34,058 bases of DNA from Actinomycetota bacterium (GTDB lineage: Bacteria > Actinomycetota > Coriobacteriia > Anaerosomatales > JAUXNU01): positions 1-34,058 of the forward strand of contig JAUXNU010000199.1 in the NCBI GenBank assembly GCA_030682655.1, given 5' to 3'. A program made the translations under genes and the position numbers. The notes beneath the pieces are model-generated. The model saw nothing but the letters and a program-made list of their open reading frames with translations. It did no database searches and was not told the DNA's origin. How positions within the stretch are numbered: the first letter of the stretch is position 1; each line of letters starts with the position of its first letter. This document shows, in pieces, positions 9,717 through 21,627 of the stretch.

Positions 9717-9773
9717 CCCGTTTCGAGGTCAGGGAGCTAACCCACCTCACCCGCTATGACACAAGGAGGCATC

Positions 9774-10121
9774 ATGAGCGACGCGCCGATTCTTGGAGCG
9801 GTCAACCACGTGACGGATCTGGACGTCGTCACTGATTTCGAGCGCAAGCACACCCCGTACCTGGAGGCAGAGAGCGTCGAGGGCGGCATGCGGATCACCG
9901 TCAAAGTCGGATACTACGCGCCTCACCCCAATGGTCCCGATCACTTCATCAACTGGATCGAGCTCGTCGTGGGCGACGCCACAATCGCGCGTTTCGACCT
10001 ATCGCCGGTAGCCACGCAACCGGATGCGTCGATCGTGGTGACCGTCGATCCCGGTACGACGATTCGGGCCGTGGAGCACTGCAACCTGCACGGGCTGTGG
10101 GTCGCCGAGATAGCGGTGTAG
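9774..10121 (+). CDS. Superoxide reductase, one-iron (neelaredoxin/desulfoferrodoxin-domain) type
   Basis: Superoxide reductase turns superoxide into hydrogen peroxide without making oxygen, typical of anaerobes. The 115-residue protein is a single iron-binding domain without the extra N-terminal desulforedoxin domain. The Fe(His)4Cys ligands are all present: His26 in RKHTP, His51 and His57 in HPNGPDHFINWIEL, and Cys103 and His106 in CNLHGLW. The catalytic Lys25 is kept, but the residue before it, normally the Glu of EKHxP that acts as sixth iron ligand, is Arg24. A Glu sits one position further out (Glu23). The ATG at 9774 follows a perfect AGGAGG; an upstream ATG at 9756 has none. It is monocistronic and convergent with the PEBP gene seven bases away. 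Confidence 0.93.
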   Translation: MSDAPILGAVNHVTDLDVVTDFERKHTPYLEAESVEGGMRITVKVGYYAPHPNGPDHFINWIELVVGDATIARFDLSPVATQPDASIVVTVDPGTTIRAVEHCNLHGLWVAEIAV

Positions 10122-11261: not shown

Positions 11262-12378
11262 TCACAGGGGGGATGCCATTCCCTCGATGCCAAGAACCTC
11301 CCGCAGCCGGTCGTAGCGGCGACGCTCAACTCTCTCGACCCGGGGGGAGCCGCTCGTCGAGACGTAGAATATCCCGTCGTAGGAAGGGTCGCTGTCGGCA
11401 ATCTCATTGCTGCTCGTGACCGCGACGCGCAACGCCGAAAGCATCGGACCGGGATCCTTCAGGAGCAGCATTCCCTCGGCGTCGGCCTTTTCGTAGCTCG
11501 TGCGGTGGAGTGCACGCCCCCAAGCCGTCACGATCCAGGCAGCGACCGTGATCGCGACCCATGTGATCGCAAGCACCGCTGCTGCGAAAACCGTCACGCC
11601 GATGGCACCCAGGCAACCCTCCGCACTGTCGGCATCTGAGAGTCCATCGAACAGGCAGCCGCAACCGTCTCCGGAGCAACCATCGGTGGCGCATCCGTCC
11701 GCCCCCCACGCGCACGCATCGGCCACCGGGCCCTTTCCGTCCTTGGCGTCCCGGATAGCTCTCAGGGGACCCATGAGCGCGGCGAGCGCGGTCCCGAACA
11801 GAATGTCACCGGCGATGATCCGCGCCACCAACGTCGCGATCACCGCACGTTGCTCGCCCTCGTCGAGCTCACCAAGGAACCCGTTCGTCACACCGATCAC
11901 CGGCCGGCTCCGGTTCGTGCCGATGGCGCACGCGTTGACTGCGGGAGTCTCGAGCAGCAACAGGCGGGGCGGCTCGCCGAGTCCCGCCGCGATCGTGATA
12001 TCACTGAGAGCGCGCTCCAAGGATGGCTGAGTGCCCGGCTGCAGGTCCGAACCGGAGAAGCGGGAGCCGCACCCAGTCCTCGGCATTCGAGAGCTGGACC
12101 GCAGCTGCCAGTGAGCCTGCGCCGAGCAAGGCGGCCAACGAAACCCCGAAAGCGATCGCTAGCCCGCGAAAGTAGTCCGGCGCATCGAGCGCCTCGATGA
12201 ACCAGCCCGCAAGGCCGATCAGGCATCCGGGGACTGCCACAAGGGCTGAAGCCAGGAGGAATGCGGAACCTGCGACGAATAGCATGACGAACATGGTGAG
12301 CTTCGCTCTGTTGCTGTCAACACGCACCCAGAGTGGCTCCATGCGCAGCTTCGCGTGAACCGGCGGTTGCGTAGACAC
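11262..12378 (-). pseudogene. M48 (HtpX-like) pseudoprotease, frame broken near 12062-12080
   Basis: Two overlapping frames together give one HtpX-like membrane protein. The first (from a GTG at 12378) supplies two membrane helices up to LSNAEDWV. The second continues as GSRFSGSDLQPG, and a single extra base joins them. The downstream part aligns with the htpX product in this window: NACAIGTNRSRPVIGV against NAFATGRNPQHAAIAV, and KADAEGMLLL against LADANGALIT. All zinc-binding residues are gone: the HExxH site reads TLVAR (residues 85-89 of the downstream frame), and the later Glu ligand is Tyr188. A loop with six Cys (125, 132, 137, 142, 144, 158) precedes two membrane helices. The protein is thus a catalytically dead M48 relative. 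The frameshift may be real or a sequencing error. Confidence 0.75.
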
Positions 12379-12511: not shown

Positions 12512-12715
12512 TTACCGGGGGCGAACGTTCGTCGCCTGCGGCTTGCCGTTCTGGCCCACGGACTCCTCAAAGGAGACTGCCTGGCCTTCGTTGAGGGTCT
12601 TGAAGCCCTCTACCTGGATCTCCGAGAAGTGGACGAAGAGATCGTCGCCACCCTCGCGCTCGATGAAGCCGTAGCCCTTGTCAGGGTTGAACCACTTAAC
12701 TGTTCCTTCTGCCAT
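12512..12715 (-). CDS. Cold-shock protein, CspA family (second copy)
   Basis: This 67-residue cold-shock domain protein is a close paralogue of the product at 7693-7896. RNP1 is [12 protein letters not shown] and RNP2 is DLFVHFSEI. Differences cluster at the C-terminus ([21 protein letters not shown]) and at IQVEGFKTL. The start at 12715 gives MAEGTVKWF; the upstream bases GAGGATGGATTTGC match the first copy's GAGGATGG-type site and TTGC-ATG junction. A 188-base leader separates it from the ruvB end, so it is probably transcribed on its own. The paired copies may differ in temperature or growth-phase response, but this cannot be seen directly. Confidence 0.96.
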
Positions 12716-12903: not shown

Positions 12904-13974
12904 CTAGAACAGCCCGTCCTGCCGAGGAGCGTCAACAGGCGCCGCAAGCCCGAGATGCTCGTAGGCGCGCGGTGTCGCCTGGCGACCCTTCGGTGTGCGA
13001 GCAAGGAATCCGAGTTGGAGCAGGAAGGGCTCGTACACGTCCTCGAGCGTGCCCGGCTCTTCCCCAACCGCCGCTGCAAGCGTGTTGAGCCCGACGGGGC
13101 GACCGCTGAACTTGTGAACGAGCGTCTCCAGGATAGCGACGTCCATCTTGTCCAGTCCGATGTGATCCACCTCGAAGAAGGCCAGTCCTTCGGCTGCGAT
13201 ATCCTCATCGACGCGCCCCTCATGGCGCACTTGCGCATAGTCCCTCACCCGCTTGAGCAACCGGTTCGCCAGACGGGGGGTTCCGCGAGACCTGCGAGAA
13301 ATCTCGGCCGCCCCGGCCGGCTCGATCTCCACGCCAAGGATCTGCGCCGAACGCACGACGATCGCCTTCAGCTCCTCGGCGGAGTAGTAGTCGAGGCGGA
13401 ACGCCATGCCGAAGCGATCGCGCAGCGGACCCGTGAGTAGTCCCGTGCGAGTCGTGGCCCCCACAAGCGTGAACCGCGGAAGCTCGAGACGGAGGCTTCT
13501 TGCGGCCGGTCCTTTGCCGATCACGATGTCCACCCTGAAGTCCTCCATCGCGGGATACAGGACCTCCTCGACGGCGCGATTCAACCTGTGTATCTCGTCG
13601 ATGAACAGGACATCGCGCTCCTCAAGGTTCGTGAGTATCGCGGCGAGGTCGCCTGCGCGCTCGATGGCCGGACCGCTCGTTGTCTTGAGCTTGACGCCAA
13701 GCTCGTTGGCAATGACCGTCGCCAAGGTGGTCTTGCCCAGACCCGGCGGACCCGACAACAGGATGTGGTCGAGCGGTTCGTCGCGCGCGGACGCAGCCTC
13801 GATCAGCACGCTCAGGTTCTCTTTGACCCGCGACTGGCCCAGGTAGTCATGGAGCCTCTTCGGCCGCAGAGAACGGTCGATCTCGAGGTCGTCCTCGGTG
13901 TACTCGGAACTCACAAGACGTTCGGACTCCTCAGCCCACGGCGCCTCGGCGTCGTTCTCCCAAACCGTACTCAC
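12904..13974 (-). CDS. ruvB: Holliday junction branch-migration helicase RuvB
   Basis: RuvB is the hexameric AAA+ motor that, with RuvA, drives Holliday-junction branch migration in recombinational repair. The 356-residue protein has Walker [10 protein letters not shown], Walker [11 protein letters not shown] and sensor/arginine-finger region [18 protein letters not shown]. The C-terminal winged-helix domain includes [26 protein letters not shown]. The N-terminal [14 protein letters not shown] is also typical. Its GTG start overlaps the ruvA stop (GTGA). The length is normal. It is the last gene of the pdxST-yebC-ruvCAB cluster. Confidence 0.98.
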
Positions 13975-20646: not shown

Positions 20647-21549
20647 TTACATCGCCTCGAGCCGCTTGATGCGATCTTCGATAGGCGGATGAGTGTCAAA
20701 GAGCGCGTTCAAGCCCCTTCCGCCCCGGTAGTCCTTGAGAGGGTTGTAGATATAGAGCGACTCAGTCGCCTTGTTCGCCACGCCAAGTCGATGAGTGTCG
20801 CCCGCGATCTTGCGCAGCGCACCCGCAAGTCCCTCGGGATAGCGCGTGATCAGGGCACCGTTCGCATCGGCCAAGTACTCCCGTTTGCGCGATATCGCCA
20901 TCTGGATCAGTGCAGCGAACAGCGGGGAGAGGATCAGAAGCGCAACGGCGACAAGTGCAAGAACCGCCTGGATCTGCCCGCCACCTTCGCTACTGCCACC
21001 ACGACGGCGTCCGCCGCCCCACCACCAGGAGCGGATCATCCACTCCGAAAGGAGGACGACCGTCCCCGCCATGACTGCGGCAAGCGTCTGCACGAGCGTG
21101 TCGTAGTTCTTGATATGCGACATCTCGTGCGCTATCACGCCCTCCAACTCCAGTCGATCGAGCTTCTCGACGAGGCCTCGCGTGACTGCGATCGCGGCAT
21201 GCTGAGGGTTGCGACCGGTCGCGAAAGCATTCGGCGCCTGGTCATCGATCACGTAGGCCTTGGGCACCGGGATGCCAGCAGCTATCGAGAGTCCCTCCAC
21301 GACGTTTACGAGATAGGGTTCCATCTCCCGATCCACAGGTCTGGCACGGCTGATCGATAGCACGATTCGGTCGGAGTACCAGTACGAACCCCACGTCATC
21401 GCGAACGCGACGACCACGGCTAGAACGAGACCACCGCTGCCCCAGTTCGACGCGTAGCCAAACGCCCAGCCCACCGCGAGGACGAGCGCCACGAACACGG
21501 CAACAAGCAACACGCTCTTGAACTTGTTCGAAGATATCTGGTCGTACAA
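20647..21549 (-). CDS. htpX: Membrane zinc metalloprotease HtpX (M48)
   Basis: HtpX degrades damaged membrane proteins. In the 300-residue form used here the zinc site is HEMSH (His141, Glu142, His145) with Glu224 in KREYLADANGA. Two N-terminal membrane helices precede the catalytic domain and two more follow it. A Gly/Arg-rich loop (GGGRRRGGSSEGGG) lies between. I start at the TTG at 21549, which has GGAGG eight bases upstream and gives YDQISSNKFKS, the usual N-terminus; the frame opens at 21567. It sits between lemA and lgt. The inactive M48 relative at 11262-12378 is its paralogue. Confidence 0.95.
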   Translation of the reverse strand: MYDQISSNKFKSVLLVAVFVALVLAVGWAFGYASNWGSGGLVLAVVVAFAMTWGSYWYSDRIVLSISRARPVDREMEPYLVNVVEGLSIAAGIPVPKAYVIDDQAPNAFATGRNPQHAAIAVTRGLVEKLDRLELEGVIAHEMSHIKNYDTLVQTLAAVMAGTVVLLSEWMIRSWWWGGGRRRGGSSEGGGQIQAVLALVAVALLILSPLFAALIQMAISRKREYLADANGALITRYPEGLAGALRKIAGDTHRLGVANKATESLYIYNPLKDYRGGRGLNALFDTHPPIEDRIKRLEAM

Positions 21550-21627
21550 CGTGTGCGCCTCCAACAATGACGTGCCGCGGTCCGCATGCGGACCGCGGCT
21601 ACGTATGACGAACCCGATTCCAGGAAC

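Follow-up and report, generated by a model that had tools for sequence, protein, structure and literature searches.

The described proteins closest to the gene studied here are HtpX, an M48B membrane zinc protease (3cqb; NCBIfam PRK04897), and the M48A proteins ZMPSTE24 and Ste24p, active enzymes with seven transmembrane (TM) helices around a chamber. In the M48C protein BepA, the edge strand takes part in chaperone-like client handling as well as in proteolysis, and a protease-dead mutant shows weakened chaperone-like activity (PMC8423444). Inactive metallopeptidase homologues, or pseudopeptidases, have been reviewed (PMC11266112), and a word search of that review returned no mention of M48; likewise, the literature searched contained neither a described bacterial M48 pseudoprotease family nor a paper combining HtpX and pseudoprotease.

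The stretch of DNA analysed here, hereafter the window (34,058 nt, contig JAUXNU010000199.1 of a bacterium of the class Coriobacteriia), carries an intact htpX gene and, separately, a gene for a protein of the same fold devoid of zinc ligands, which belongs to subfamily A of a pseudoprotease family described below. The relevant features are:

11262-12378, minus strand: subfamily A M48 pseudoprotease gene, GTG start at 12378, ca. 373 aa if read through
12067-12378, minus strand: N-terminal part, TM1 and TM2, first frame
11262-12065, minus strand: C-terminal part with M48 core, Cys loop, TM helix and C-terminal signature, second frame
11919-11942, minus strand: AVNACAIG, equivalent of HtpX PNAFATG, taken to adjoin the substrate-binding strand
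11820-11834, minus strand: TLVAR replacing HExxH (His1 to Thr, catalytic Glu to Leu, His2 to Arg)
11613-11720, minus strand: Cys/Gly/Asp-rich loop with six Cys, at the position of the TM3-TM4 linker of HtpX
11517-11624, minus strand: hydrophobic stretch of ca. 36 residues (TM4)
11493-11495, minus strand: Tyr at the third zinc-ligand (Glu) position, the adjoining Glu being invariant in subfamilies A and B
12904-13974, minus strand: ruvB, conserved upstream neighbour
12512-12715, minus strand: cold-shock protein gene between ruvB and the pseudoprotease gene
20647-21567, minus strand: intact htpX of the same conserved block, included for comparison and not as a proven partner
9756-10121, plus strand: conserved superoxide-reductase-like gene, downstream of the ruv block and oppositely oriented to it

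The initial annotation treated the interval 11262-12378 as a single open reading frame, but it consists of two frames that had been bridged silently. A 274-aa ORF at 12086-11262 (minus strand) supplies the C-terminal piece with TLVAR and the Cys loop, and the N-terminal quarter (TM1-TM2) lies in a separate upstream frame, from 12378 to ca. 12046, with the frame switch between ca. 12067 and 12046; searches and alignments used a read-through protein of ca. 373 aa. Orthologues from related genomes are intact single open frames and the other conserved window genes that were compared show no break in the sense orientation, indicating that the break is private to the window copy, both halves of which are 52-68 % identical to orthologues. 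It represents either an assembly error in the 221-contig draft or a recent lesion, neither of which we rank above the other. A subfamily B paralogue on contig C63 of the same genome (G000; L002:1138-2684), situated directly after hisI-hisE, is also split over two frames; it lacks the Cys loop and its site is dead (NLMTRLRKGD).

The window protein has TLVAR in the place of HExxH and Tyr in that of the third-ligand Glu, as had been noticed from the sequence initially, and the residue counts agree exactly (TLVAR begins at residue 85 of the 274-aa ORF and SYEKAD at 197). The dead site extends to the whole family (18/18 members of subfamily A, 14/14 of B and 7/7 of the divergent group C), and no member, including those of group C, contains HExxH; the nearest homologues with an intact motif are ordinary HtpX proteins. 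In the alignment of A and B, the catalytic Glu is Leu and His2 is Arg in all 32 sequences, the former His1 column contains Thr, Ala, Met or Pro in A and Asn in B, and the third-ligand column, where the Glu of ExxAD is missing from both subfamilies, contains Tyr or His in A and Ala or Ser in B. Residues E293 and D296 (numbering of orthologue L038) are invariant in A and B. The former catalytic helices are the best-conserved segments of the A and B alignment, with mean values of 0.71 and 0.78 vs. 0.46 for TM1-2 and 0.57 for the domain. This conservation, together with the fixed replacements, does not resemble decay and suggests that a surface or core has been repurposed. We infer that the former zinc site is a metal-free packing or salt-bridge site, with an Arg-Glu contact replacing zinc.

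Homology to M48 peptidases was recovered by several types of search. Pfam M48 (PF01435) matched the window ORF (E = 3.6e-7; 30.6 bits vs. a cut-off of 20.3) and all 17 orthologues at E ≤ 0.01; profile-profile comparison by hhalign of the family with HtpX from the window and related genomes gave 98.3 % probability (E = 2.1e-14, 192 columns), and the family profile matched the HtpX domain 3cqb with E = 1.7e-10 (HMM). The match of the window ORF to NCBIfam HtpX, 44.2 bits, is far below the cut-off of 355. Foldseek searches with an AlphaFold2 model of orthologue L038 (PHEU01000011; mean pLDDT 74, pTM 0.67) retrieved ZMPSTE24, 3cqb and Ste24p with probabilities of 0.96-1.0 (1.0 for ZMPSTE24) and E-values no better than 1e-3, none of the matches reaching E ≤ 0.001, and the orthologue model superimposed on 3cqb with a TM-score of 0.72 by target, an rmsd of 2.1 and 32 % identity. 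The M48 core fold proposed initially thus holds in profile and structure searches alike, with Foldseek E-values of only 1e-3. The alignment along the whole length with the htpX product of the window, also part of the initial annotation, was borne out in part, since plain BLAST aligns just 86 residues at 36 % identity but profiles align more. Residues N147, A148 and G152 (L038 numbering), from the putative substrate-strand region, are retained in all subfamily A and HtpX rows. A PF01435 scan of its own genome missed the window gene despite the above-cut-off score, and the gene was recovered with the protein query alone; absence in such family scans is therefore weak evidence.

The six Cys residues of the window protein, at positions 125, 132, 137, 142, 144 and 158 of the 274-aa ORF, lie where they were first reported, between residues 125 and 158. 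Nevertheless, the loop does not stand in place of the Glu ligand, as had been supposed, but fills the TM3-TM4 linker of HtpX, and it is followed by one hydrophobic stretch of ca. 36 residues, modelled as a single helix, and not clearly by two membrane helices. The loop occurs in all 18 members of subfamily A, so that in this subfamily it is conserved together with the dead site, and is missing from B and C. Across 17 orthologues, Cys makes up 12.9 % of the loop vs. 0.27 % of the remainder, a 48-fold enrichment. The loops of subfamily A have 4-8 Cys in 38-55 residues with variable spacing, are acidic and rich in Gly and Asp, and contain one His at most; three Cys columns, C231, C238 and C252 (L038 numbering), are invariant in the 17-row alignment. 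The loop keeps its position and its Cys content, but the number and spacing of Cys vary, so that a fixed metal site is no more than possible; in the L038 model the loop is disordered (pLDDT under 50). By comparison with HtpX, the loop probably lies across the membrane from the M48 domain, although TM3 is short and followed by Lys/Arg, which makes the topology uncertain. A modified Cys peptide of the SCIFF type (six Cys in ca. 45 residues) was considered and dropped, as the loop lies within a membrane protein.

Among 248 sampled genomes of the class, the family was detected at E ≤ 1e-25 in 50, every one of them from the order of the window, which is probably OPB41/Anaerosomatales; 19 genomes of this order and the other 179 genomes of the sample gave no match at this threshold. 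No relatives were found in viral contigs or plasmids. Subfamily A is present in 22 of the sampled genomes, and its absence from many genomes of the order indicates that it is dispensable. The named A orthologues, all from metagenome-assembled genomes labelled Coriobacteriia or Actinobacteria, are 55-75 % identical to that of L038. The next matches in the phylum (E ca. 1e-15 to 1e-20) are mostly of HtpX-like length, and the six examined were all ordinary HtpX with intact HExxH. In a tree confined to the pseudoproteases and HtpX, A (91/99) and B (93/96) each formed one group, the C members were long-branched, and all pseudoproteases separated from HtpX with full support; the family may thus descend from HtpX itself or from another M48 family. 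The dN/dS ratios between A orthologues were 0.08-0.32 where dS was unsaturated, and across the same genome pairs A had a dN ca. 2-3 times as high as HtpX; judging from these ratios, subfamily A is under purifying selection. In its sequence, subfamily A has the marks of a pseudoenzyme, catalytic residues lost with the fold and purifying selection retained.

In some B proteins (L030, L035 and L036) the C-terminus is extended by hydrophobic segments and ends in a zinc-ribbon-like element of four Cys (CxxC...CxxC). The more distant group C paralogues (L085:4555-6858, L088:4676-5740, L089:3779-5206, L090:2612-4978 and L091:5223-10536), two of them in tandem in L085, all lack HExxH, and several have AHLVAR-like motif helices and a RLREILG-type C-terminal signature.

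In most loci that cover the stretch, subfamily A is preceded by lemA-htpX-lgt-DUF3048-pdxS-pdxT-yebC-ruvC-ruvA-ruvB. Its start is 0-4 nt past the ruvB stop codon in 8 of 13 loci, suggesting cotranslation of ruvB and A; in the remaining loci the two are separated by a cold-shock gene, as in the window, or by other sequence. The cold-shock gene is likewise placed between ruvB and A in L045, L046 and L049, and farther away in some other loci. Genomes without A retain ruvB followed by different genes, and B is found after hisI-hisE in many loci. Superoxide reductase and isochorismatase genes follow A, often with other genes between; a linkage of A to them was rejected as mere neighbourhood, both being near ruvB with or without A. 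Neither of the downstream genes to which the initial annotation drew attention is conserved there, the small membrane protein (121 aa) appearing in none of 17 related loci and the PEBP lipoprotein in 3 of 17. A scan for promoters and terminators yielded nothing clearly above chance.

We favour, with a probability of about 0.6, the reading that the gene encodes a repurposed membrane pseudoprotease that would bind clients or partners without cutting them. The regulatory or scaffold role proposed from the start was a sensible inference in this respect, given an M48/HtpX fold with family-wide loss of the zinc site under selection. The dead, Cys-bearing form is kept by many relatives, which makes it likely that the protein still works, in a new role that does not involve cutting, and is not junk. 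In favour of this reading we count the dead site throughout the family, the M48 fold, purifying selection, the Cys loop, the operon placement and the precedent of BepA. By analogy, the weakened chaperone-like activity of the protease-dead BepA mutant would speak against it, as do the Foldseek E-values, none of which reached 0.001, the mean pLDDT of 74 of the model, and the dispensability of A within the order; in addition, the window gene and the B paralogue are split and may be broken in the source genome, and the operon placement may reflect steady expression instead of function.

These two frame breaks, together with the unbroken state of the other window genes compared, are what a decaying, functionless pseudogene in the source genome would leave. 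We consider this doubtful, since the relatives checked are intact and under purifying selection, the window halves retain their identity to orthologues, and the break could stem from faulty sequencing or assembly of the 221-contig draft. Doubtful to a similar degree is a metal or redox sensor, in which the loop would take a soft metal (Zn, Cu, Ni or an Fe-S cluster) or undergo a redox change and the M48 domain would relay it across the membrane. The conserved Cys content of the loop in A, with almost no Cys elsewhere and three invariant columns, and its acidic, nearly His-free composition are consistent with sensing; its variable Cys count and spacing and predicted disorder are not, subfamily B is maintained without it, and the only known metal-handling gene among the conserved neighbours of the window is that for superoxide reductase, which stays near ruvB irrespective of A. 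A broader version, an HtpX-derived class of membrane sensors in which a trans-membrane Cys loop would sense metal or redox state and the cytoplasmic domain would sequester or release clients, represented in one order of Coriobacteriia by several paralogues (ruv-linked, his-linked and tandem), appears improbable.

Some pseudoproteases regulate active relatives, and the pseudoprotease could be dedicated to regulating the cell's own intact HtpX, with which it shares its fold and which is encoded within ca. 10 kb in most loci covering that stretch. But ruvB and an HtpX-like match remain close in G045, G060 and G042, which do not have A, so that this linkage does not depend on A and such regulation is also improbable. 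By far the least credible alternative is a metal-dependent protease whose active site has been displaced, using for instance the shifted Glu (E293) and Cys ligands from the loop: the invariance of E293 and D296 in A and B would fit, but there is no His at either former His position, the catalytic Glu is invariably Leu, and B entirely lacks the Cys loop.

For a non-cutting binding protein, the following mechanism can be proposed. With the zinc ligands lost, the zinc site would have turned into one of metal-free packing or salt bridging, formed by the Leu and Arg that replace the catalytic Glu and His2 and by the invariant Glu adjoining the third-ligand position. The membrane-anchored domain would then hold clients or partners, uncut, through the retained substrate-strand region, and act as an adaptor, holdase or regulator in membrane protein quality control. 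Binding might be tuned by the Cys loop, which probably lies across the membrane from the domain as in HtpX and could hold a metal or change its redox state; this is the weakest step.

Dead HtpX-like paralogues have been multiplied and kept across many families of the order and sited after housekeeping operons, and they constitute a natural test of the role of the M48 membrane fold without proteolysis, with a bearing on BepA, Ste24 and HtpX. The pseudoprotease resembles HtpX in TM1-TM2, in the M48 core with a helix-loop-helix between the motif helices, and in the NA.A.G strand region, the D after the motif helix and the AD..G of the third-ligand helix; it differs in lacking zinc ligands, in its Cys loop in the TM3-TM4 linker and in a C-terminal signature of its own, FY...RLREVLG.EG. 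ZMPSTE24 and Ste24p are among the best overall Foldseek matches, but with a TM-score of only ca. 0.37 to the L038 model. The M48 fold is also shared with BepA, whose non-proteolytic client handling needs the edge strand (PMC8423444), although BepA is periplasmic and has a TPR domain and an active zinc site. With the inactive metallopeptidase homologues (PMC11266112), the pseudoprotease shares a retained fold and the loss of catalysis.
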